The notes under the pieces are model-generated. The model searched no databases and had not been told where the DNA came from. It saw nothing but the letters and a program-made list of their open reading frames with translations. Shown piece by piece: positions 486 through 31,552 of a stretch of 64,000 nucleotides of DNA; position 1 is the stretch's first letter; each line of letters starts with the position of its first letter. The translations under genes were made by a program, and so were the position numbers. Origin of the DNA: Acidihalobacter prosperus. Lineage in GTDB: Bacteria > Pseudomonadota > Gammaproteobacteria > DSM-5130 > Acidihalobacteraceae. The DNA is taken from assembly GCF_000754095.2 (NCBI RefSeq), contig NZ_JQSG02000006.1, positions 418,637 through 482,636 of the forward strand, in the 5' to 3' direction.

Positions 486-5491
<5,006 letters not shown>

Positions 5492-7115: not shown

Positions 7116-8474
7116 CTAGCGCATCGTGACCAGCTCTTCGGCACTGGTCGGGTGGATCGCGACGGTGTCGTCCAGATCCTGCTTGGTCGCGCCCATGCGG
7201 ATCGCGACCGCGAAACCCTGCAGCATCTCGTCCGCGCCCGGGCCGATGATGTGGCAACCGACCACCTTCTCGCGCGCACCCACGGTGACGAGCTTCATCG
7301 CGGTCTTCACCGGATGATCGGTCATCGCGTGGTACATCGAGGTGAAGCTGGTCTGGTAGATCTTGACCGCCTCGCCGTGCAGCTCGCGCGCCTCGTCCTC
7401 GGTGAGCCCTACGGTGCCGATCGGCGGGTGGGTGAACACCACCGTGGCGATGTTCTCGTAGTCGAGCCGGCGCGCCTTCTGTCCGCCGAACAGCCGGTCG
7501 GCGAGCCGCCGCCCGGCCGCAATGGCGACCGGGGTCAACTCCACGCGCCCGGTGATGTCGCCGATCGCGTAGATACCCGCCACGTTGGTGTTCTGGTAGG
7601 CATCCACCGCCACGTGACCGTGCTCGTCCTGAATCACGCCGATCGCCTCAAGGCCCAGCTCGGTCACCGCCGGGCGGCGCCCGATCGCCCACAGCACGGA
7701 CTCGAAACCGCCCGATATGCGGCCGTCGGCGCAATGCAGCGACAGCCGTCCGTCGTCGTCGCGCCGCAGCGACTCGATGCGTGCACGCGGAAACACGGAA
7801 ACGCCGGCCTCCAGCATCGCCTCGGTCAGATGTTCGCGCAGCAGGTTGTCGAAGCGGCGCAACAGATGTTCGCCGCGAAGATACAGCGAAACATCCGTGC
7901 CCAGGGCATTGAGCAGACCGGCCAGTTCGACGGCGATATAGCCGGAGCCGACCACGGCCACGCGGCCGGGCAGGTGGTCGAGTTCGAAGAAACCGTCCGA
8001 GGTGATACCGAGATCCGCGCCTTCGATTTCCGGCATCACCGGCTCTCCGCCGGTGGCCAACACGACGTGGTCGGCGGTATAGCGGATGCCGTCCACCTCG
8101 ACCGTGCGCGCATCGACCAGACGCGCGTGACCGCGTATGAGCGCAACGTCGGAATCGTCCAGGTAGGTGACGTACCAACCGTTGATACCGCTGATATAGG
8201 CATCTCGCTTGGCCTTGAGTTCGGCCCAGTCGAAGGTCGTTTCGCCGACCGAAAAACCATAGCCGGGCGCGTCCTTGAGCGCATGCGCGAGGCTGGCGCC
8301 GTACCACATCACCTTCTTGGGCACGCAGCCGACGTTGACACAGGTGCCGCCCAGGCGGCGCGATTCGACCACCGCGCAGCGCGCCCCGTAGCGGGCCGCA
8401 CGCTCGGCTACCGACAGCCCGCCGCTGCCGCCACCGATGGCGATCAGATCGAAATGCCGCGGTTCGTTACTCAT
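7116..8474 (-). CDS. gorA: Glutathione-disulfide reductase
   Basis: FAD- and NADPH-dependent flavoprotein that regenerates reduced glutathione. The FAD loop GGGSGG is at residues 14-19. The redox disulfide is C45 and C50 in [13 protein letters not shown]. The second dinucleotide fold reads [11 protein letters not shown] and is followed by arginines in [10 protein letters not shown], as in NADPH-using reductases. The C-terminal interface carries the catalytic HPT motif (AIHPTSAEE). ATG at 8474 is preferred because GGAGG lies 5 nt upstream. An in-frame ATG at 8486 would add four residues but has a poor ribosome site. It is convergent with the upstream lipoprotein gene and divergent from ubiA. 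Confidence 0.95.
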
Positions 8475-8579
8475 CTTTGCCTCCATCCGGGTGTGAATGC
8501 GCGCACTTTACGCCGATCCGCCGGCCGGTGAAGTGCGGCGCTTGATTTTGGGGGTTCGACGGTGCGAAAGTCATGCGCC

Positions 8580-9491
8580 ATGGCCGACACCAACCCACTC
8601 CTCGCCGCGCTCAGACCGGGACACCCCCTGCGCGAACGTCTGTGGCAGTACGCACTGCTGGTGCGGGCCAATCGCCCGATCGGCGCGCTGCTGCTCGTCT
8701 GGCCGATGCTGTGGGCGCTTTGGATCGCCGCCGAAGGCCGCCCAGATCCCTGGGTGCTCGTCGTGTTCCTGGCCGGCACCTGGGTGATGCGCTCCGCCGG
8801 CTGCGCGATCAACGACTACGCCGACCGCGACTTCGACGGTCATGTCGCCCGTACCCGCCAGCGCCCGCTGGCCGCCGGCCACATCCGCCCCATCGAGGCG
8901 ATCGGCGTGTTCCTGGCACTCAGCCTGACCGCCTTCCTGCTGGTACTGAGCATGAACAGGGAGACGGTCTACCTCTCCTTCGCCGGGGTCGCGCTGGCGG
9001 CGAGCTATCCCTTCATGAAGCGCTTTCACCACCTGCCCCAGGTGCATCTCGGCGCGGCCTTCGGCTGGGCGGTGCCCATGGTCTGGACCGCGCAGACCGG
9101 CGCATGGCCCGGCCCGCTCGCCTGGCTGATCTTCATCGCCGCGGTACTGTGGGCGACCATCTACGACACCCTGTACGCCATGGCCGACCGCGAGGACGAT
9201 CTCAAGATCGGACTCAAGTCGACGGCCATTCTGTTCGGCGACGCCGACCGTCTGATCATCGGCGTGTTGCAGGTGATGATGATGGCCACGCTATTCCTGA
9301 TCGGCCGCGATGCGCATCTCGGTTGGCCATACGACCTGTCATTGGTCGTCGCCGCGGGCATGTTCGTCTATCAACAGCTGCTGATCGCCTACCGCGTGCC
9401 CGAGTTCTGCTTGCGTGCCTTCATGAACAACAACGGCTTCGGCTTCGCCGTATTCGCCGGCGTCGCCCTGTCCTATCTGCTGCGCGCCTGA
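8580..9491 (+). CDS. ubiA: 4-hydroxybenzoate polyprenyltransferase
   Basis: Integral membrane prenyltransferase that attaches the polyprenyl tail to 4-hydroxybenzoate in ubiquinone synthesis. The first prenyl-diphosphate/Mg motif is NDYADRDFD at residues 78-86, followed by ARTRQRPL. A second aspartate-rich motif (YAMADREDD) lies after the middle. Multiple hydrophobic helices run along the 303 aa, and RPIGALLLVWPMLWALW near the N-terminus is typical of UbiA. A GTG at 8562 would add six residues; ATG 8580 is preferred. No ubiC is adjacent. The 3' end overlaps the convergent ComF-type gene by 19 bp. Confidence 0.95.
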   Translation: MADTNPLLAALRPGHPLRERLWQYALLVRANRPIGALLLVWPMLWALWIAAEGRPDPWVLVVFLAGTWVMRSAGCAINDYADRDFDGHVARTRQRPLAAGHIRPIEAIGVFLALSLTAFLLVLSMNRETVYLSFAGVALAASYPFMKRFHHLPQVHLGAAFGWAVPMVWTAQTGAWPGPLAWLIFIAAVLWATIYDTLYAMADREDDLKIGLKSTAILFGDADRLIIGVLQVMMMATLFLIGRDAHLGWPYDLSLVVAAGMFVYQQLLIAYRVPEFCLRAFMNNNGFGFAVFAGVALSYLLRA

Positions 9492-22733: not shown

Positions 22734-24284
22734 ATGGAAACGTTGCGGTTGGTTGCACCGGTCATCCCCGACGCCATCATCGCGGCCGATACGCGAGGCG
22801 ACATCCTGTACGCCAATCCCGCGGCATCGCGCCTATTCGGCTATCGTGACGACGACTGGCAGGGACGCAATGTCCGCGAACTGGCGCCAGCACCACATCG
22901 CGATGCGCACGACGGCTACCTGAACCGCTATCTGGCCACCGGCGAGGCCCGCCTGATCGGAAAAGGCCGCGAGACCGAGGCCATGCGGCGCGACGGCAGC
23001 ACCTTCCCCGTACGCCTGGCGCTCGGCGACATGGGCGCCGGCAAATCCGACGGCTGGCGTTTCATCGCCCTCATCCAGGATCTCACGTCGGAATACCAGC
23101 ATCGCCAGCAGCTCCAGACCCAGCACGACATGTTGAACCTGGTCATCAACCGCGTGCCGGCCCTGGTCGCCTATGTCACGCCCGACGAGCGCTATCGGCT
23201 GGCCAGCGCCACCTACTCGATCTTTTCGTCCCTCCCCGCCGACCAGGTGCCCGGCCACCAGGTCCGCGAAATTCTCGGCGAAGCACGTTACGCCGTGGTC
23301 GAGCCCTATTTCAGGAAGGCGCTGCAAGGCGAAGAGCAGGCCTATGAGGCCGATCTGCCGGAGCCGGACGGCGAAATCCGGCGCTTCGAAATCCGCTACA
23401 CGCCCGACCGTGCGCCCGACGGCGAAGTCCGTGGCGTGCTGATACTCGCCCTGGACGTGACCGCGCAGCGCATGATGGAAATCCAGGCCAGCGAGCGATT
23501 GACGGCATTGGGCGGGCTGGTTGCCGGCGTGGCGCACGAGGTCAACAACCCCATCGGCATCGCCAACACCACCGCAAGCCACCTCGAGGACGCCACGCAA
23601 CGCACGCGCGAGGCCTGGATCGCCGGCACCCTGACGCGCAGCGAACTCGAAAAATATATGAACGAGGCCGAACAGGCCGCGAAACTCATCGCCGACAACC
23701 TCCAGCGCTCGGCGCGCCTCGTCCGCGAATTCAAGCAGGTCGCCGCCGATCAGCGCGCGGCGGAGCCCCGCCGCATCGAGCTGTGCGGCTACCTTGAAGA
23801 GGTACTCGACACGCTCAGGCCGCTGACGCGGCACCGGCCGGTCGCGATGACGCTGGACTGCGCCGATCCCGTCACGCTGACCGACTATCCGGATGCCTGG
23901 GCGCAAATCCTGATCAATCTGGTACAGAACTCGCTGACCCACGGCTTCATCGAGCATCAACCCGGGCACATCACGCTACAACTGCGACGCGAGTCGGACA
24001 CGATCATCTTCGTCTATCAGGACGACGGCTGCGGCATGCCCGAGTCCGTGCGCCTGCAGGCACTCGACCCCTTTTTCACCACGCGCCGGGGACAGGGCGG
24101 CAACGGGCTTGGCCTGTCCATCGTACACAACCTCGTAACCGGGCTGTTTCGCGGCAGCCTGAAGCTGGAAAGCCGGCCCGGGCATGGCGTGCGTTTCACG
24201 ATCCGTCGCCCTCTGCCAGAAACCAGCGGCGATGCCCCCCCGCCGTACCCACGCACGCCAACCCTGGCCGACATTGATCGATGA
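22734..24284 (+). CDS. Soluble PAS-domain sensor histidine kinase
   Basis: Cytoplasmic sensor kinase of 516 aa with no membrane segment. A first PAS domain covers residues 5-118 (IIAADTRGDILYANPAASRLFGY), and a second PAS-type domain lies at about 128-250. The dimerisation/phosphoacceptor helix has H268 in GVAHEVNNPIG, followed by an extended helical stretch. The ATPase domain has an N-box (INLVQNSLTHG), G1 (DDGCGMPE), an F-box (DPFFTTR) and G2 (GGNGLGLSIV). This HisKA variant with HEVNNP is common in energy- or redox-sensing kinases. The receiver/HD-GYP gene starts 30 bp downstream and is its likely partner. Confidence 0.92.
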   Translation: METLRLVAPVIPDAIIAADTRGDILYANPAASRLFGYRDDDWQGRNVRELAPAPHRDAHDGYLNRYLATGEARLIGKGRETEAMRRDGSTFPVRLALGDMGAGKSDGWRFIALIQDLTSEYQHRQQLQTQHDMLNLVINRVPALVAYVTPDERYRLASATYSIFSSLPADQVPGHQVREILGEARYAVVEPYFRKALQGEEQAYEADLPEPDGEIRRFEIRYTPDRAPDGEVRGVLILALDVTAQRMMEIQASERLTALGGLVAGVAHEVNNPIGIANTTASHLEDATQRTREAWIAGTLTRSELEKYMNEAEQAAKLIADNLQRSARLVREFKQVAADQRAAEPRRIELCGYLEEVLDTLRPLTRHRPVAMTLDCADPVTLTDYPDAWAQILINLVQNSLTHGFIEHQPGHITLQLRRESDTIIFVYQDDGCGMPESVRLQALDPFFTTRRGQGGNGLGLSIVHNLVTGLFRGSLKLESRPGHGVRFTIRRPLPETSGDAPPPYPRTPTLADIDR

Positions 24285-24314: not shown

Positions 24315-25865
24315 ATGAACAACAACAGCCTCGGACTCGCTCCCGACAACACCTCGCCCCAGGCCAGCGGACGCCCCTGGCGCGTCCTCATCGTCGACGA
24401 CGAGAAGGATGTTCACTCGGCGGTACGCATGGCCATTGCGGGCATCCGCTTCCACGCTCGTCCACTGGAAATCGTCAGCTGCTATTCGGCTGCCGAGGCT
24501 GAGGCAGATCTCGCCGCGCACCCCGAAACCGCGCTCGCGCTGGTCGACGTGGTGATGGAGAACGAGCATGCCGGTCTCGACCTGGTGCGCACCGTCCGCG
24601 AAAGGCAGCATAACGCTCAGGTACGCATCGTGATCGTCACCGGCCACCCCGGCCAGGCCCCCGAACGCGAGGTGGTACGCGACTACGACATCAACGACTA
24701 CCACGAAAAGACGGAAATGGACGTCAACCGTCTGTATGCGGTCGTCATCAACGCCCTTCGCGGCTACAGTGCGCTGGCGACGCTGGAGCGTTCTCGACGC
24801 GGGCTCGAACGCGTTGCGGAGGCCAGCGGCGGCCTGTTCTCGCACGAATCCATCGACCAGTTGCTGCACGCGGTCTTGGACGAAATGGCCTCCCTGCTCG
24901 GCGTGCTCGAAGGCGGCCTGCTGCTGGAAACGCCCGCGGCCGCGATCGTCGAGGCGGAAACGGCAAGCGAACCGGACCTGCGCATCGTCGCCGCGCTCGG
25001 GCATTATCGCCCCAGCGCCGGGCAGAAACCCGCCGCCCTGTTGCCGAGCGAGGGCCTGCGACTGGTACTCCAGTCCCTGCGCAACGGCAGCACTCAAATC
25101 GAGGGCCGGCTCTTCGCGGGCTACATCCCCAGCCGCTGTCAGCCGCGCCAGGTGATCTATCTCGAAGGCATGCCGCCACTGTCCCCGGCCGACCTGCAGT
25201 TCATCGAACTGCTGCTGGCGAACACCGGCCGGGCCCGCGACCAATTGACCCTGAGCTGCGACATGGAGCGCATGCAGCGCGAAACCCTGCTGCTGCTCTG
25301 CGAAGCCATCGAACTGCGCTCTGGCGAGACCGGCAACCACGTGCGCCGCGTCGGCGAAAGCGCCGCGCTCCTCGGCAAACTCGCGGGCCTCGATTCGGCC
25401 GAGTGCGAACTGCTGCGCGCCGCAGCGCCGCTGCACGACGTCGGCAAGATCGCGATCCCCGATGCCATACTCAACAAGCCTGGCGCGCTCACGGAGGAGG
25501 AATGGGTGGTGATGCGCACCCATGCGAACGCCGGTCACGCACTGCTGATCAGCCACGATTCGCGCTGGCTCGCCGCCGCCGCCGAAATCGCCCTGAGCCA
25601 CCACGAGCGCTGGGACGGCCAGGGCTACCCCGGCGGACTCGGCGGCGGTGACATCCCGCTCTACGGACGCATCACCAAGCTCGTCGACGTGTTCGACGCA
25701 CTGCTGTCGCGACGCTGCTACAAGGAGGCGTGGCCCCTGACACGGGTGCTCGAAGTGCTGCAGCAGGGGCGCGGCAGCGAATTCGATCCCGTCCTGACCG
25801 ACCTGATGCTGCGGCACATCGAGGACTTTCTCGCCATTCACGAACGCCTGCCGGACGCAGGCTGA
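24315..25865 (+). CDS. Response regulator with HD-GYP c-di-GMP phosphodiesterase domain
   Basis: A 516-aa response regulator. The receiver domain (about 22-150) has D28/D29 in LIVDDE, phospho-acceptor D78 in ALVDVV and an atypical C-terminal end. A middle domain (about 150-310) resembles DUF3369, a GAF-like module often found between receiver and HD-GYP domains. The C-terminal HD-GYP domain has HDVGKIAIPDAIL, HHERWDGQGYPGG and DVFDALLSRR, with the metal-binding HD and GYP residues intact, so c-di-GMP hydrolysis is expected. It is probably phosphorylated by the upstream PAS kinase. Its stop is 22 bp before the left end of an IS element, which cuts it off from the next gene cluster. Confidence 0.93.
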   Translation: MNNNSLGLAPDNTSPQASGRPWRVLIVDDEKDVHSAVRMAIAGIRFHARPLEIVSCYSAAEAEADLAAHPETALALVDVVMENEHAGLDLVRTVRERQHNAQVRIVIVTGHPGQAPEREVVRDYDINDYHEKTEMDVNRLYAVVINALRGYSALATLERSRRGLERVAEASGGLFSHESIDQLLHAVLDEMASLLGVLEGGLLLETPAAAIVEAETASEPDLRIVAALGHYRPSAGQKPAALLPSEGLRLVLQSLRNGSTQIEGRLFAGYIPSRCQPRQVIYLEGMPPLSPADLQFIELLLANTGRARDQLTLSCDMERMQRETLLLLCEAIELRSGETGNHVRRVGESAALLGKLAGLDSAECELLRAAAPLHDVGKIAIPDAILNKPGALTEEEWVVMRTHANAGHALLISHDSRWLAAAAEIALSHHERWDGQGYPGGLGGGDIPLYGRITKLVDVFDALLSRRCYKEAWPLTRVLEVLQQGRGSEFDPVLTDLMLRHIEDFLAIHERLPDAG

Positions 25866-25983: not shown

Positions 25984-27417
25984 TCACCCAGCCTGGATGG
26001 CCTGGATCAGGTTTTGCGTTCCCATCAGGTTCATCATGCGCTTGAGGTTGTAGGCCAATACATGCAGGCTCATCTCGGTACTCACATGTTCCAGGGTTCG
26101 GGTCAGGAAGTGCGTGTGGCCCATCCATGATTTAATCGTTCCGAATGGATGCTCGACCGTTTGTCTTCGGATGCGCATGCTCTGCGGCGCCTGATCCAGA
26201 CGTCTTTGCATGGCTTCGAGGACATCCTGATGCTCCCAACGACTGACCCGTCGATAATCACCGGGCGTGCATTGGGATTTAATGTCGCACCGTGGGCAAT
26301 GTGAGCTCCAGTAACGATGGATCTTCAGGCCACCTTCTGTGCTGACATAACGCCAGATCAAACGTTGTCCGGCAGGACAGCGATATTCATTGTTGGTCGC
26401 ATCATAGATAAAGTCCGCCTTGTCGAAGCGGCCATCAGCTCGGGCGCCCGACGTCGTGGTCTTCGGCACGATGGCGGTAATGCCCGCCTCATGACAGGCC
26501 AGGATCTGTTCGCTTTTGTAATACCCCCGATCCGCAATGACTGTCAGATCCGTTTCACCCGTGGCCGTTCGAGCGTGTTCTGCCATCGTTGTGAGCTGGT
26601 CACGATCACTGCCGTGCGAGGTCACCGCATGGGCGACAATCAGGTGATGTTGCGCATCAACCGCAGTCTGGACGTTATAACCAACGATCCCTGCGCCACG
26701 GCTCTTCATGGAACGTGCATCCGGATCGGTCTGTGAGAGTTGGCCATCTGGACTCGCATTGAGTTCGGTCTCGATGGCCTGCAGCTGCTTCATCTGTGAC
26801 TTGAGCGCTAAGATCTTGTCCTGAAGACGCCCTGACTGGGCCCGGGCCACCTCATCTTCCTGACGATCGGCCGTGTCCAGATCCACCAGATAACGCTGGA
26901 TGCTCTTGTCGATCTCTTCCATTCGACGCTTGAGCTTAGCCTTCGTGAAGTTCCGGTCCCGGTTGTTCACCGCCTTAAACTTGCTCCCGTCGATGGCCAC
27001 CAGGGCTTCGGAGAACAAACCCAGCTGACGGCACAGATACACAAACTGGCGACAGACATTACCGATGGCCTGTCCATGTTCCTGGCGAAAGCGGGCAATG
27101 GTCTTGTGATCCGGCATCAGGCGACCGGTCAGCCACATCAGCTCGACGTTGCGCTGGGCCTCACGCTCAAGACGACGCGAGGATTGCACCCGGTTGAGAT
27201 ACCCATAGATGTAAAGCTTGAGAAGAACGGCCGGATGGTAACCGGGACGTCCCGTAGACGCCGGCTCAACCCCGGCAAATCCCAGCGCACCCAGATCCAG
27301 TTCATCGACAAAGACATCAACCACACGAACCGGGTTGGCATCGCTGACATAATCATCAAGGACTTCTGGAAACAAGACGCTTTGCGTACGGCTCTGACCT
27401 TCAATAAAACGCTTCAT
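25984..27417 (-). CDS. IS1182-family transposase
   Basis: DDE transposase of 477 aa, apparently full length with no frameshift. The N-terminal region has GRPGYHPAVLLKLYIYGYLN and LMWLTGRLMPDHKTIARFR, typical of IS1182/IS5-related enzymes. Candidate acidic residues are the Asp of LVAIDGSKFKAVNN, the Asp of TVIADRGYYKSEQI and the Glu of RQTVEHPFGTIKSW. A charged coiled-coil-like insert lies between the first two (about 165-235), and a cysteine cluster (CPRCDIKSQC) lies near residue 375. Intact motifs and both ends suggest the element may still be mobile. Confidence 0.92.
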   Translation of the reverse strand: MKRFIEGQSRTQSVLFPEVLDDYVSDANPVRVVDVFVDELDLGALGFAGVEPASTGRPGYHPAVLLKLYIYGYLNRVQSSRRLEREAQRNVELMWLTGRLMPDHKTIARFRQEHGQAIGNVCRQFVYLCRQLGLFSEALVAIDGSKFKAVNNRDRNFTKAKLKRRMEEIDKSIQRYLVDLDTADRQEDEVARAQSGRLQDKILALKSQMKQLQAIETELNASPDGQLSQTDPDARSMKSRGAGIVGYNVQTAVDAQHHLIVAHAVTSHGSDRDQLTTMAEHARTATGETDLTVIADRGYYKSEQILACHEAGITAIVPKTTTSGARADGRFDKADFIYDATNNEYRCPAGQRLIWRYVSTEGGLKIHRYWSSHCPRCDIKSQCTPGDYRRVSRWEHQDVLEAMQRRLDQAPQSMRIRRQTVEHPFGTIKSWMGHTHFLTRTLEHVSTEMSLHVLAYNLKRMMNLMGTQNLIQAIQAG

Positions 27418-27752: not shown

Positions 27753-28754
27753 ATGGCAGTCCCAAACAAGCACATTTCCATCCGTCTCGGGGGCATACAC
27801 GGCAAGGCGCAGACCATCGTCAATGTGGCTCTCAGGCTGCTGCCGGCCAATCACATCGACTATACCCTGGTCAGCGATGAGCGCGTGCCGGCGGACCTGC
27901 TGATCGCCGATGGCGACGACGCCACGGGGCAGGCGCTGCTGGCGGCAAGCGCGCGCGACCAACACGCCATCGTCTACGGCAAACAGGCGCCCGCAGCCGT
28001 CGCGGCCCAATGGCAGTACATCCATCCCCTGAGGGTGCAGGGCCTGCTGGACGCCATCGGCGATCTGGTGCGGCATATGCCCGTCCGCACTCGGCAGGCC
28101 GGCACGCACGAAATGGACGGCGTTTCCGACAGCTGTCTGCAATGGCTGACGCGCATGCGCCATCTGGACACGCCGTCTCATGCCGTCGTCGCCCCGACGC
28201 TGGCGATCTGGATCGACGGGCAGGCCAAGACCTTCTACGCCATCCAGAATTTCGATAAGGTCAGCATGGAAATGGCCGCCTGCAGCCGGCCGCCGCAGGT
28301 CCGCACGGTCGACCCGGAGACCTTTCTGGCAGCGACGGCGAAACTTCAGCGCCACAACCTCGACGGCCTGATCTGGCGCACCGCGCACATGCCCCGCAAG
28401 GTCGCACCGCTGGATCCGAAACAGCGCTACAGGCTCAGGGGCTGGCCGAATTTCACCCGCGTCGGCGCGCAGGCTCACGAACTCAGGCTGGCGGCGCTGC
28501 TGACGCAGCGGGCGATGAGCGTCGCGGAACTCGAACGCGCCAGCGGCTGCGACCAGCAGGAAATCGCCGGTTTCTGCAATGCCGCCCGTTGGTTCGACCT
28601 GTTGCTGACCGAAAGCGCAGCCCCCGATCACCGGCCGTCTTCGCTGCCTGGCACGCCTGCGGCCGCGCACGGGCCGGCCTCTTCCGGTCTGCTCGCACGA
28701 CTTGCGCGCCGCCTGTCCGACATGGTGACATCAAGAGGGGCCGATGAACGCTGA
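27753..28754 (+). CDS. Pseudo-receiver-like regulator paired with a GTPase (copy 1)
   Basis: A 333-aa soluble protein of no recognised family. Residues 1-110 look like a degenerate receiver fold: a hydrophobic strand followed by IADGDDATGQALLA at the phospho-acceptor region and YIHPLRVQGLLDAIGDL near the end. Residues 111-220 are unique to this copy. Residues 226-286 (YRLRGWPNFTRV, then RLAALLTQRAMSVAELE and FCNAARWFDLLL) match the C-terminal module of the protein at 29488-30180 and may be a winged-helix-like domain. ATG at 27753 has AAGGAA 6 nt upstream. The stop overlaps the next GTPase gene by 11 bp. Function is inferred only as a regulator or scaffold of the GTPase. Confidence 0.7.
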   Translation: MAVPNKHISIRLGGIHGKAQTIVNVALRLLPANHIDYTLVSDERVPADLLIADGDDATGQALLAASARDQHAIVYGKQAPAAVAAQWQYIHPLRVQGLLDAIGDLVRHMPVRTRQAGTHEMDGVSDSCLQWLTRMRHLDTPSHAVVAPTLAIWIDGQAKTFYAIQNFDKVSMEMAACSRPPQVRTVDPETFLAATAKLQRHNLDGLIWRTAHMPRKVAPLDPKQRYRLRGWPNFTRVGAQAHELRLAALLTQRAMSVAELERASGCDQQEIAGFCNAARWFDLLLTESAAPDHRPSSLPGTPAAAHGPASSGLLARLARRLSDMVTSRGADER

Positions 28755-29289
28755 CAACAAGATCCTGTTTGCCGGTCCTGTCGGCGCCGGCAAAACGTCC
28801 GCGATCCAGGCCATCAGCGATTTCCCGCCAGTGAGCACCGATGTCCACGCCAGCGAGGACGAACGCACGCACGAGGGCAAGACCACCACCACGGTGAGCA
28901 TGGACTACGGCCATATCGAACTCGACGACGGCATCGGCGTCCACCTTTACGGCACTCCGGGTCAACGCCGTTTCAGCCACATGTGGGACATCTTGACGCA
29001 GGGTGGTCTAGGCTTGGTTTTGCTGGTGGACAACTCGCGCGAGGATCCCTTGGCCGACCTGACTTTCTACCTGGAGGCCTTTGCCGATTTCGTTGTCCGG
29101 ACCGCAGTCGTCATCGGTGTGACGCACACCGATATGGCCCGCCAACCGAAAATGGACGACTATCTCGAACACCTCGCTTCCCACCACCTGAGCCACCCCG
29201 TGTTCGAGGTCAACGCCACTCACCGCAACGATATCGTGCTGCTCGTACAGACGCTGCTCGCCTGCCTCCAGACCCGGCCGCGGCCGTAA
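28744..29289 (+). CDS. Small Ras-like GTPase (copy 1)
   Basis: Bacterial small GTPase (MglA/CvnD-like) of 181 aa. The P-loop is GPVGAGKT at residues 11-18, and a Thr-rich switch I region (KTTTTVSMDYG) contains the Mg-binding Thr. Switch II reads LYGTPGQRRF, in which the Asp of Ras DxxG is replaced, as is usual in this branch. The G4 position reads VTHTD, not the canonical NKxD, so base specificity or affinity may differ. It overlaps the preceding regulator gene by 11 bp. It is about half identical by eye to the GTPase at 30177-30704. Confidence 0.87.
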   Translation: MNADNKILFAGPVGAGKTSAIQAISDFPPVSTDVHASEDERTHEGKTTTTVSMDYGHIELDDGIGVHLYGTPGQRRFSHMWDILTQGGLGLVLLVDNSREDPLADLTFYLEAFADFVVRTAVVIGVTHTDMARQPKMDDYLEHLASHHLSHPVFEVNATHRNDIVLLVQTLLACLQTRPRP

Positions 29290-29487
29290 TCCGCATGCCC
29301 CTTCGTCCCGCGTCGCTTGAAGGCAGGCTGTATATCCGGCCATGGGCTGCTAACATCAGATAACGGACACCGATGATAAGAAAATCTACTGACGCCGGTG
29401 GGTGGACGGGCGCCGAGCGCCGGACACCGGAAGACCCTGAAGCTGCGCACGAGCGCCCCGTTTTCGGTGCGCGATGGAAGATCGCTC

Positions 29488-30180
29488 ATGTCCGCTACGT
29501 ATAAGACCCTGTCTCTGAATGCCCTGAGTGACAAGGACGCAGCCGTTGTGACCTCGCTGCTCGAATTGCTGGCGGACAGGATGCAGCACGCCTGGCGCGT
29601 CGACAACGCCGTCGCGCGGCCGGATCGCATCCTGATCGACATCGACGATCCCATGGGCCAGTCGCTATGGCAAACCTCAGCGCGCGAGGGCCCACGGCGC
29701 ATCGCGCTCTCCGCCCGCACCCCTCCGCCTGACGCGCTGCACGTGCTGCACAAGCCGATCCGGGCGCGGGATCTGGTCAGCGTGCTCGAACGCAGTCTGG
29801 AGCAGGACGCCGCCCGGCAGGGAGCGCCCGCCGCCGCGGGCGCGACGGGCAGGCCTCCGGCCCTCGACGCGTCATCGCTGATCCAGCTCAGACGCTGGCC
29901 AAGCCCGCAAGTTGTGCAGGCCGCCGGCGACCGGGCATCGCTGACGCGCCTCAGCGCGGTCTTGATTCGCCGGGCCATGACACTCGAGCAGCTGGCACGC
30001 GAAGCGCGCAGCGAGCTTGAAACGGCCCGGCATTTCGTCGAACTGTGCCACCGCCAGGGCTGGCTGGCCGTGCTGGGCTCCGCACCCGCGAATCAGGCAC
30101 CGGCCCTGTCCACCCGACACGAACGACGGGGGCTGTTTTCGCGCATCCGCGCCGGACTTGGCCTGGGAGGCCAGCCTTGA
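29488..30180 (+). CDS. Pseudo-receiver-like regulator paired with a GTPase (copy 2)
   Basis: A 230-aa paralog of the protein at 27753-28754. The N-terminal 105 residues again resemble a receiver without the standard acidic pocket (ILIDIDDPMGQSLW at 48-61 and LHKPIRARDLVSVLE at 87-101, where the KP pair sits as in true receivers). A 20-residue Ala/Pro linker leads to the shared C-terminal module at about 131-197 (IQLRRWPSPQVV, LSAVLIRRAMTLEQLA, FVELCHRQGWLAVL). It lacks the middle domain of copy 1. ATG at 29488 is chosen because homology begins there. The stop overlaps the start of the following GTPase gene. A 198-bp gap with no recognised gene separates it from GTPase copy 1. Confidence 0.7.
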   Translation: MSATYKTLSLNALSDKDAAVVTSLLELLADRMQHAWRVDNAVARPDRILIDIDDPMGQSLWQTSAREGPRRIALSARTPPPDALHVLHKPIRARDLVSVLERSLEQDAARQGAPAAAGATGRPPALDASSLIQLRRWPSPQVVQAAGDRASLTRLSAVLIRRAMTLEQLAREARSELETARHFVELCHRQGWLAVLGSAPANQAPALSTRHERRGLFSRIRAGLGLGGQP

Positions 30181-30704
30181 ACGAACTCAAATTCATTTTC
30201 ACGGGGCCGCCCGGCGCCGGCAAGACGACCGCCATTTCCTCGATCAGCGAAATCCCGCCCGTGGCCAGCGACGTGGCGACCACGGACGACCTCGCCGAGA
30301 TCAAGCAAACCACCACGGTGGCCATGGATTTCGGCGAGGTCACGCTCCCGGACGGCCAGATACTCCATCTCTACGGCACGCCGGGGCAACGGCGTTTCCG
30401 GCACATGTGGGAAATCCTCGCCCAGGGCGCGCTGGGTCTGATCATCCTGTGCGACAACAGCCGCCCTGACCCCATCGCGGACATGGACATCTACCTCGAA
30501 AATTTCGCGCAGCTCATTGAGCAGACCGGCGCCGTGGTGGCCGTCAACCGGATGGAGACGCCCAACAGCCCCACACTCGAGGATTACTACACCCATCTGC
30601 AGGACATCGGCCTGATCCTGCCCGTACTGGCGGCAGACCCACGCGAACGCGAGGACATGCTGATGCTGCTGGACACCCTGATCACCACGCTGGAGTACGT
30701 TTGA
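30177..30704 (+). CDS. Small Ras-like GTPase (copy 2)
   Basis: GTPase of 175 aa, a paralog of the one at 28744-29289. The P-loop is FTGPPGAGKTTAI, switch I contains QTTTVAMDFG, and switch II is LYGTPGQRRF. The G4 region reads VNRMET, so the Asp that reads guanine in most GTPases is Glu or missing. The start is a TTG at 30177 in a TTGA overlap with the upstream regulator's stop, with GGGAGG 6 nt before it. The stop abuts the first Roadblock gene. Such GTPases usually work with Roadblock-domain GTPase-activating or recruiting proteins, as in MglA/MglB polarity control; that role is inferred here. Confidence 0.85.
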   Translation: MNELKFIFTGPPGAGKTTAISSISEIPPVASDVATTDDLAEIKQTTTVAMDFGEVTLPDGQILHLYGTPGQRRFRHMWEILAQGALGLIILCDNSRPDPIADMDIYLENFAQLIEQTGAVVAVNRMETPNSPTLEDYYTHLQDIGLILPVLAADPREREDMLMLLDTLITTLEYV

Positions 30705-31094
30705 ATGTCCGTGACCGCCATCACCGAGGAAATCCGCCACATCGCGGAAACGCGGCTGAGGACCCTGCTCGACGAACAGAGCAGCGTCTATGGCGCCCTG
30801 CTATCCAGCATCGACGGCCACCGCCAGGCGAGCGCCATGCACAAGGACCTGCACACCTCGAAACTGGCCGCCATGACCAGCTCGGTCATTGCCCTGGGCG
30901 AAAGCCTTGCCAAGGAGGCGGAGCAGTCGCAGTGCCAGTTCGTAATCGTGCAGAACCGCGATGGCTACATCGTCACCCAGCGCCTTGGCACAAACCATGC
31001 TTTAACCGTCTTCGCCACGGCCACCGTCAGTCTGGGCATGCTGCTCTCGACGATACGCATCGCCGCAGAGGATCTGCACCACTACCTCGCTTAG
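30705..31094 (+). CDS. Roadblock/LC7 domain protein (MglB-like)
   Basis: A 129-aa protein with one Roadblock/LC7 domain over about residues 26-125. The segments GALLSSIDGHRQAS, KLAAMTSSVIALGE, CQFVIVQNRDGYIVTQRLG and LSTIRIAAEDLHHYL match the alternating strands and helices of MglB-type proteins. Such proteins dimerise and act as GTPase-activating or adaptor partners of the small GTPase encoded next to them. The ATG directly follows the GTPase stop with no gap, so translation is coupled. Confidence 0.82.
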   Translation: MSVTAITEEIRHIAETRLRTLLDEQSSVYGALLSSIDGHRQASAMHKDLHTSKLAAMTSSVIALGESLAKEAEQSQCQFVIVQNRDGYIVTQRLGTNHALTVFATATVSLGMLLSTIRIAAEDLHHYLA

Positions 31095-31141: not shown

Positions 31142-31552
31142 ATGGCAGACCTCAACGCCATTTGCGAACAAGTCGTAGACGACGTCAACGACGCCCTCGG
31201 CTTTGCCGTTGTCGATCTCGGCTCCGGATTGCTCATGGCCGTGCACCACAAGGTGCCTTATTTCACCCAGAGCTATCTCGACGCGGTCGCCGCGGCGGCG
31301 GTCGACATGTTCCGCGGCAAGACCATCAATGCGGTCGAAAAGCTGCTCGCCAACCAGCGTGGCACGGATGTCGCCAACTCCATCAAGGAAGTGCAGATGA
31401 CCACCGACGGCACCTATCACTTCATGTCCATCGTGCCGGGCAAGCCCAACTCGCTGGCCGTGCTGATCACCGGCCGCAAGGCCAATCTCGGCATGGGCTG
31501 GGCCGCGTTGCGCAAGTCGCTGCCGGAAATCGCCCCGCACTGCCCGGGCTGA
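31142..31552 (+). CDS. Divergent Roadblock-like protein
   Basis: A 136-aa protein with the order strand-helix-strands-helix expected of the Roadblock/profilin-like fold: FAVVDLGSGLLMAVHHK, the long helix from QSYLDAVAAAAVDMF, then YHFMSIVPGKPNSLAVLIT and a final helix WAALRKSLPEIAP. It is not closely similar to the Roadblock protein at 30705-31094, so it is not a simple duplicate. ATG at 31142 has AAGGAG about 8 nt upstream, a stronger ribosome site than its neighbours, which suggests higher expression. It is the last gene of the cluster; a hairpin follows. Confidence 0.68.
   Translation: MADLNAICEQVVDDVNDALGFAVVDLGSGLLMAVHHKVPYFTQSYLDAVAAAAVDMFRGKTINAVEKLLANQRGTDVANSIKEVQMTTDGTYHFMSIVPGKPNSLAVLITGRKANLGMGWAALRKSLPEIAPHCPG

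Follow-up and report, generated by a model that had tools for sequence, protein, structure and literature searches.

In a 64,000-nucleotide stretch of the Acidihalobacter prosperus genome (contig NZ_JQSG02000006.1, positions 418,637 to 482,636 of the forward strand; hereafter the window), an operon encodes two proteins, here called RD1 and RD2, each immediately in front of an MglA-like GTPase and both coupled to downstream roadblock genes. RD1 and RD2 belong to a real and widespread family without a name, which combines an N-terminal pseudo-receiver with a C-terminal winged-helix-like module (C-module). Across genomes, the linkage of the family to GTPase genes follows the C-module and not the pseudo-receiver. 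The window operon is a Group 3 MglA-type system with two GTPases, and the family is the unnamed Group 3 protein described in 2014. As to function, the RD proteins probably determine when the GTPase becomes active, perhaps so as to steer surface pili.

The window operon is a Group 3 MglA-type system

The gene order of the operon is RD1-GTPase1-RD2-GTPase2-roadblock-roadblock-like (Table 1), and the two GTPases are 49% identical. A sequence-only reading of the window had placed two related proteins at 27753-28754 and 29488-30180, and both the coordinates and every motif named there were confirmed. RD1 and RD2 share GDDATGQ/IDDPMGQ, IHPLR/HKPIR, LRGWP/LRRWP and TQRAM/IRRAM, as well as a tryptophan close to the end of the C-module (AARW/RQGW). 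The proteins align at both ends, as had been claimed (BLASTP E 2e-05 for the C-terminal and E 0.002 for the N-terminal block), and each gene directly precedes a GTPase gene, with overlaps of 11 and 4 bases. A profile of 64 proteins from other genomes selected only RD1 and RD2 among 362 open reading frames (ORFs) of the window, with E 2.6e-44 and 4.6e-24 and two separate blocks each. This profile excludes both window proteins, but its members were gathered with a seed profile containing both, so that there is mild circularity. In the organism's own genome, the family profile gave three matches, all inside the two RD genes, and the GTPase profile gave two.

The sequence-only reading had also proposed a new family without a name. 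RD1 and RD2 indeed have no significant match to any named Pfam or NCBIfam family, and when 8 and 47 members of the family were scanned against Pfam, the matches were weak and confined to one or two members each (for the scan of 47, 25 of 30 matched families are listed). Sequence searches of the PDB returned nothing useful. Single-sequence searches are too weak to detect the family: with RD1 as query, 6 of 56 genomes were matched (own genome counted), and with RD2 there was no match in the genome contigs or in four relatives. The claim of novelty did not survive, because the protein had been described, likewise without a name, by Wuichet and Søgaard-Andersen in 2014 as part of the Group 3 MglA systems of beta- and gamma-Proteobacteria (PMC4316618). 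Literature searches found no work on the Group 3 upstream partner since then.

The Group 3 protein was reported to have a receiver-like N-terminus, a variable linker and a C-terminus resembling a winged helix-turn-helix (HTH), and to adjoin MglA and one or two MglB; Group 3 MglA is distinguished by GTPGQ at G3, threonine in place of the G2 arginine finger, a G4 motif that departs from [NT]KxD, and DAR at G5 (PMC4316618). The neighbourhood in the window has this composition, with RD-GTPase pairs and, behind them, one Robl_LC7 gene and a further co-conserved small gene, and the N-termini of the RD proteins have a receiver fold (see below). In the alignment, both window GTPases have GTPGQ at G3 and threonine in place of the G2 arginine finger. 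Their G4 motifs are VTHTD and VNRME, without lysine, and their G5 motifs NATHR and DPRER, though the consensus of the aligned relatives is DAR. In the GTPase tree, which held no labelled members of Groups 1, 2 and 4, the smallest clade with both window GTPases comprises 109 of 136 tips (support 0.96). It includes the GTPases of Snodgrassella and Stenotrophomonas, which are genera named in Group 3, and takes in none of the 22 Chloroflexi and cyanobacterial GTPases.

The phylogenetic range agrees as well. Among the best 80 of 592 confirmed GTPase loci, an RD gene was present in 53, namely in 53 of 56 proteobacterial loci (beta or gamma by title, except L171, which is labelled Proteobacteria only) and in none of the 24 others, one of which is zetaproteobacterial. 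The proteobacterial loci without RD are L151, L164 and L131, the last of which is truncated by the start of its contig. The RD proteins are almost certainly the Group 3 partner proteins. The window differs from the described Group 3 systems by having two RD-GTPase pairs per operon and a compact RD2 that lacks the middle part. An RD gene adjoins a GTPase gene in Snodgrassella as well (L163). In that genus, spreading changed when an orphan roadblock gene carried a point mutation, an effect that the authors, in the accessible part of their paper, credit to type IV pili; the mutation also aided gut colonisation (PMC11112851).

GTPase linkage follows the C-module

The family profile matched in 82 of 369 genomes of the class, in some cases by a pseudo-receiver only. 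We fetched 80 regions. Sixty of them are all the matches outside the own genome with E no higher than 3.1e-24; the other 20 are weaker, hand-picked matches, 12 of which were chosen because they carry the pseudo-receiver alone. An RD passed 1e-8 in 77 of the 80 regions; the C-module was present in 63, and a GTPase was found in 53 of these 63 C-module loci. The 14 regions counted without a C-module were the 12 with a pseudo-receiver only, none of which has a GTPase nearby, plus L088, whose protein is too long for the alignment, and L113, with a compact form that falls short of the threshold; both have a GTPase. The proposed GTPase linkage of relatives therefore held for the C-module and failed for the pseudo-receiver alone in the loci examined. 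RD proteins without the N-terminus were found beside a GTPase at seven loci (by alignment occupancy; at one of them, L093, the GTPase is broken), and proteins without the middle part beside a GTPase at L113, L123, L129 and L133; both kinds keep the C-module.

Where an RD gene has a GTPase on the same strand (108 genes), the RD gene comes first in 100, the two are fused in 2, and the arrangement is another one in 6. In the RD-first cases, the GTPase domain starts -60 to 500 bases past the RD stop (overall median 24). The forward and the reverse locus sets overlap in species in some cases (for example L092 and L132).

Ten C-module loci have no GTPase in the fetched stretch, a point against the role proposed below. 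Three of them are close to a contig end (L059 at 149, L071 at 163 and L076 at about 1,100 bases); the other seven (L039, L045, L046, L066, L083, L096 and L097) are not.

Some variant arrangements were also seen. At L005 (1596-2957) and L044 (1596-3089), the GTPase is fused behind a part that reads as Ser/Thr kinase-like, directly after the RD gene. L139 has two RD genes (3596-4771 and 7953-8936); one precedes the GTPase, and the other lies behind two roadblock genes and is encoded on the opposite strand. In a larger RD layout, a conserved gene of about 211 codons, here called RBX (examples in Table 1), sits between the GTPase and the roadblock gene. Two RBX proteins tested had no Pfam match; by eye, RBX consists of a small N-terminal domain and a roadblock-like C-terminus.

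Evolution of the two pairs and of the middle domain

The clade of GTPase 1 has 14 members (support 0.87), that of GTPase 2 has 10 (0.91). Given these different subclades, a recent tandem duplication of the RD-GTPase pair was rejected for the GTPases. The layout with two GTPases is not unique to the window: the operons L040 and L051 also have a first and a second GTPase, and these belong to the two clades just named. RD1 and RD2 share a clade of 16 (support 0.94), separate from the RDs of GTPase-1-type GTPases elsewhere. For pair 1, the RD and GTPase trees therefore disagree, with weak support, since RD1 does not group with the RDs accompanying GTPase-1-type GTPases. This counts against the role proposed below and may reflect either partner exchange or poor resolution.

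Three of the RDs without a GTPase (L039, L045 and L046) form one clade with RDs from loci whose GTPases group with GTPase 1. In two of these three genomes, an operon of the order GTPase-RD-GTPase-roadblock is present elsewhere (L040 and L051), with the RDs of the GTPase-1 type standing alone (L039 and L046). The partners of L039 and L046 may thus have been left in that other operon. This explanation does not cover the genome of L045, nor L066, L083, L096 and L097.

The region of about 110 residues that had been described as an extra domain of the first copy is present in RD1, but it is the family norm, because RD1 and six homologues of the first alignment carry it and only RD2 does not. A gain by the first copy was accordingly rejected. 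Most members have the middle domain; it is absent from RD2, L113, L123, L129 and L133, and the GTPases of these four loci and of RD2 share one clade of 23 (support 0.77). Comparisons of the middle domain with profiles of receivers, DUF742, DUF4388, MarR, IclR, ArsR, Rrf2 and RBX all remained under 0.5%.

A pseudo-receiver that lacks the acidic pair

Structure prediction, which the sequence-only reading had suggested as a check, gave an N-terminal receiver fold for both proteins (AlphaFold predicted local distance difference test, pLDDT, 83.9 for RD1 and 87.0 for RD2). The RD1 model matched 8e9g_O (VIA Z 10.9, root-mean-square deviation (rmsd) 2.6, 103 aligned residues) and the AraT receiver (Z 10.7), and the RD2 model matched the AraT receiver 6swb_B (VIA Z 12.4, rmsd 2.4, 106 aligned). 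A profile of 108 N-termini aligned with 42 true receivers at 97.3% in hhalign (E 2e-11), compared with 0.1-0.2% for the middle and C-module profiles. Foldseek is less favourable to a receiver assignment: RD2 had four matches with E up to 0.001, the best being the response regulator VanR (E 5.6e-5), and RD1 had none at that threshold.

The N-terminal part had been characterized as a receiver without its acidic pocket. The fold and the missing acidic pair bear this out; the aspartate and lysine columns are nevertheless mostly kept. In the family alignment, the first position of the Mg2+-binding acidic pair is glycine in 77% and the second mostly hydrophobic, the phospho-acceptor column has aspartate in 74% and asparagine in 15%, and the lysine of the KP pair is kept in 77%. 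RD1 has D53, H91 in place of the receiver lysine, and no acidic pair after strand 1; RD2 has both D50 and K89. In lacking the acidic pair and any match to PF00072 (none for RD1 or RD2), the family differs from classical response regulators, which combine PF00072 with a DNA-binding output. Aspartate-less receivers, as presented in the accessible part of PMC4395418, likewise have the receiver fold with an altered active site, but these have lost the aspartate, whereas the RD family mostly keeps it and has lost the acidic pair instead.

The pseudo-receiver also recurs fused to true receivers, twice beside chemosensory genes. Such fusions were seen at L107 (1442-3195), beside a second receiver, a CheW gene and a HAMP protein; at L102 (20-3027), beside a second receiver and a gene for a methyl-accepting chemotaxis protein; and at L100 (1683-3024), beside a second receiver. 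We take the gene order at L107 and L102 to resemble that of the pilGHIJ cluster. At L104 (2260-3198), the fusion partner of the pseudo-receiver is a cyclic-nucleotide-binding domain (Pfam cNMP_binding, 4.4e-21), and the region has no GTPase.

The fusions at L107 and L102 would suit a scaffold or targeting adaptor, in which the pseudo-receiver would attach the GTPase module to a chemosensory or two-component machine and the C-module would be a mere tether. We regard this role as hardly probable, given the seven loci that keep RD beside a GTPase without any pseudo-receiver.

The C-module resembles winged helices

In the model, the C-module consists of the LRxWP strand, three helices and a further strand, and a low-confidence linker leads to a terminal helix; pLDDT is mostly above 90. 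The model and the profiles together suggest a winged helix. Among the Foldseek matches of RD2, whose full-model lists, like those of RD1, are filled by the receiver part, the winged-helix protein 2yu3 appeared at E 0.021.

In profile comparisons, the C-module matched the C-termini of DUF4388-type proteins at 93.1% (E 3.3e-7, 87 columns) and DUF742 at 79.4% (E 1.5e-5, 89 columns), and MarR, IclR, ArsR and Rrf2 at 23.8-52.6% over 37-53 columns. The C-module profile also scored DUF742 and DUF4388 proteins higher than generic winged HTH proteins (Mann-Whitney p 0.004 and 2e-05; as these values ignore the relatedness of the sequences, they do not serve as proof). Several observations weigh against a special kinship. 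ArsR reached E 1.4e-4, within a factor of ten of DUF742, the DUF4388 C-termini matched MarR equally well (93.0%), and DUF742 matched the DUF4388 C-termini at only 14-21%. Single-sequence scores overlapped (best ArsR 12.3 bits, best DUF742 12.0), and PF05331 (DUF742) had no match in RD1 or RD2 at E 1, its matches in the own genome being elsewhere and below cut-off. Kinship of the C-module with DUF742 is thus inseparable from generic winged-helix likeness, and the resemblance of the sequences is suggestive only.

A winged helix behind a receiver-like domain is also what one would expect of a transcription regulator that binds DNA under the control of the pseudo-receiver or the GTPase. For the Group 3 protein, transcription control rather than nucleotide exchange was proposed in 2014 (PMC4316618), and a transcription role has been suggested for CvnC of the actinobacterial conservons. 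According to the accessible part of PMC8510531, DUF742 is assigned to the HTH superfamily, with DNA binding as its proposed function. The VanR match of RD2 fits this as well. We nevertheless consider DNA binding unlikely: the RD gene is tied to a GTPase gene, RD1 and RD2 have no significant match to a Pfam HTH family, and helix alpha3 of the RD family has on average few basic residues (K+R 0.74 of 16, n 117; DUF742 1.0, n 8), compared with 1.8-2.9 in MarR, IclR, ArsR and Rrf2. The charge is a weak argument for C-module function. The net charge of alpha3 is similar in RD (-0.23) and MarR (-0.19), which speaks for DNA binding, and the alpha3 of DUF4388 C-termini is basic (K+R 2.45).

Other partners encoded in front of MglA-like GTPases

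Among 128 plasmid records with a GTPase match, 11 regions were opened. A DUF742 gene directly precedes the GTPase gene in eight of nine actinobacterial regions (none is listed in the Rhodococcus region), and a DUF4388 gene does so in the Thermus region. The Neisseria gonorrhoeae record (L211) has no annotation at the GTPase region; this "plasmid" of 2,167,441 bases, for which 17 features are annotated, is probably a chromosome labelled wrongly. In the 22 Chloroflexi and cyanobacterial loci, the upstream ORFs resemble one another in having a winged-helix-like C-terminal part and a terminal helix, and DUF4388 (PF14332) was confirmed in all three proteins scanned (two of the 22 and the Thermus protein). 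At the zetaproteobacterial locus L194 (Mariprofundaceae), an ORF before the GTPase (458-1447) has no RD or Pfam match and a similar terminal helix; it is perhaps a further type of GTPase partner.

Like the RD proteins, the actinobacterial CvnC/MfpC proteins (DUF742, PF05331) are small and HTH-type; their gene comes immediately ahead of that of an MglA-like GTPase, and a roadblock gene adjoins (eight of the nine regions opened). They differ in having neither a receiver nor a middle domain, and the roadblock gene of the conservons lies upstream. DUF4388 proteins of Chloroflexi and Thermus are likewise encoded directly before the GTPase, and their C-terminal part and terminal helix align with the C-module; the N-terminal domain is a different one, and alpha3 is basic. 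The mycobacterial DUF742 protein MfpC is stated to be the guanine nucleotide exchange factor (GEF) for the GTPase MfpB, and the roadblock protein MfpD is cited as GTPase-activating protein (GAP), in the accessible parts of PMC13343842 and PMC13015309, both of which cite the primary report. One study found mfpC in Actinobacteria only, as far as its accessible part goes (PMC13015309).

RomR/RomX of Myxococcus offer a second parallel, as a receiver-containing partner acting as GEF for MglA (accessible part of PMC13343842), similar to what we propose for RD. Unlike RD, they are not encoded beside mglA (PMC4316618). The pairing of genes and the variable N-terminal modules would also fit an effector, which would bind the GTP form and carry the output, for example to pilus proteins or to the pole, leaving nucleotide exchange unchanged. 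Myxococcus MglA does interact with receiver proteins, but these partners are not encoded beside mglA (PMC4316618), and the characterized gene in the same position as RD, that of DUF742/MfpC, is reported to encode a GEF (accessible parts of PMC13343842 and PMC13015309). An effector role thus appears quite unlikely. We presume that the receiver of RomR is canonical, and we know of no winged-helix module in RomR/RomX.

Proposed role of the RD proteins

What the analysis establishes is the sequence family, the receiver fold in the models, the linkage of the genes and their coupling with GTPase and roadblock genes; the role set out here goes beyond that. We regard each RD protein as the partner of the GTPase encoded right after it. 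Because of its gene position and its module, the RD C-module is proposed to act like MfpC, that is, to bind the cognate GTPase and aid GDP/GTP exchange as a GEF or GEF-like adaptor. We favour this over DNA binding, while giving it slightly less than an even chance, the net charge of alpha3 and the discordant trees of pair 1 having tipped it below even. The roadblock protein would be the GAP, as MglB is. The pseudo-receiver and, where present, the middle domain would serve for input or docking and time the action of the C-module, and the pseudo-receiver possibly pairs with the receivers of a Pil-Chp-like chemosensory system.

The output would probably be control of type IV pili or of polarity. 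Pilus control is favoured because the pseudo-receiver occurs at pilGHIJ-like loci and because PilM was found in 79 of the 82 profile-positive genomes compared with 215 of 287 others (Fisher 3.5e-06; lists compared by eye). It weighs against this argument that the PilM association is uncorrected for phylogeny and genome size and that the 82 genomes include some with a pseudo-receiver only.

A broader, rather doubtful extension is that the MglA-family GTPases of bacteria could share one ancient winged-helix module as their exchange partner. In Actinobacteria this module would stand by itself, as DUF742 (CvnC/MfpC); in Chloroflexi and Thermus it would be joined to a DUF4388 sensor, and in beta/gamma-Proteobacteria to a pseudo-receiver and a middle domain. 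The order of partner, then GTPase, would have been kept across phyla while the input domain was swapped.

Genomic context of the operon

The features of the operon are listed in Table 1. RB2, the last gene, had no significant Pfam match (best 0.22). When the operon was scanned for promoters and terminators, a single promoter-like site turned up, on the minus strand, along with seven terminator-like ones (3.2 expected); nothing was concluded from this.

Just upstream of RD1, an ORF of 477 residues (25984-27417, minus strand) presumably resembles IS1182-type transposases. Upstream of it are a PAS-type histidine kinase-like ORF (22734-24284, by eye) and an ORF (24315-25865) that by eye is a receiver/HD-type regulator, of which the receiver alone was confirmed by profile. 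Two genomes of the same genus and two of the same family had no such GTPases by the GTPase profile and no match to RD1 or RD2 as single queries. The transposase-like ORF, together with the absence of such GTPases from these four relatives, suggests that the RD-GTPase operon was acquired.

Table 1. Features of the window operon (positions in the window) and examples of RBX genes (positions in the locus named)
Feature	Position	Strand	Description or basis
RD1 (P0001, 333 residues)	27753..28754	+	pseudo-receiver, middle domain and C-terminal winged-helix-like module
RD1 pseudo-receiver (residues 5-113)	27765..28091	+	model and fold comparison, hhalign to receivers, alignment columns
RD1 middle domain (residues 126-212)	28128..28388	+	alignment, model, profiles
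RD1 C-module (residues 225-330)	28425..28742	+	LRGWP, winged-helix-like core, terminal helix
GTPase 1 (P0003)	28744..29289	+	MglA-like, GTPGQ G3 motif; start overlaps RD1 by 11 bases
RD2 (P0002, 230 residues)	29488..30180	+	compact: pseudo-receiver and C-module, no middle domain
RD2 pseudo-receiver (residues 3-112)	29494..29823	+	model, alignment columns
RD2 C-module (residues 130-223)	29875..30156	+	model, profile
GTPase 2 (P0004)	30177..30704	+	MglA-like, TTG start; overlaps RD2 by 4 bases
Roadblock/LC7 (MglB-like) protein	30705..31094	+	Pfam Robl_LC7 4.1e-06
RB2, second small co-conserved protein	31142..31552	+	"roadblock-like" by place and size only
RBX	L061:4579-5214
RBX	L043:2053-2688
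RBX	L128:5541-6179
RBX	L163:5537-6196

Implications

Bacteria have few Ras-like GTPase modules, those of Myxococcus and Streptomyces being the best known. The version found in beta/gamma-Proteobacteria is common, as seen from the profile matches across the class, and the window adds a further member of a described family, in a layout with two GTPases. What is new here is the linkage at the level of modules, the composition of alpha3, the occurrence of the pseudo-receiver beside chemosensory genes, and the tentative parallel to DUF742 and DUF4388 proteins. If the C-module is indeed an exchange factor shared with these proteins, the missing activator of several GTPase groups would become testable.

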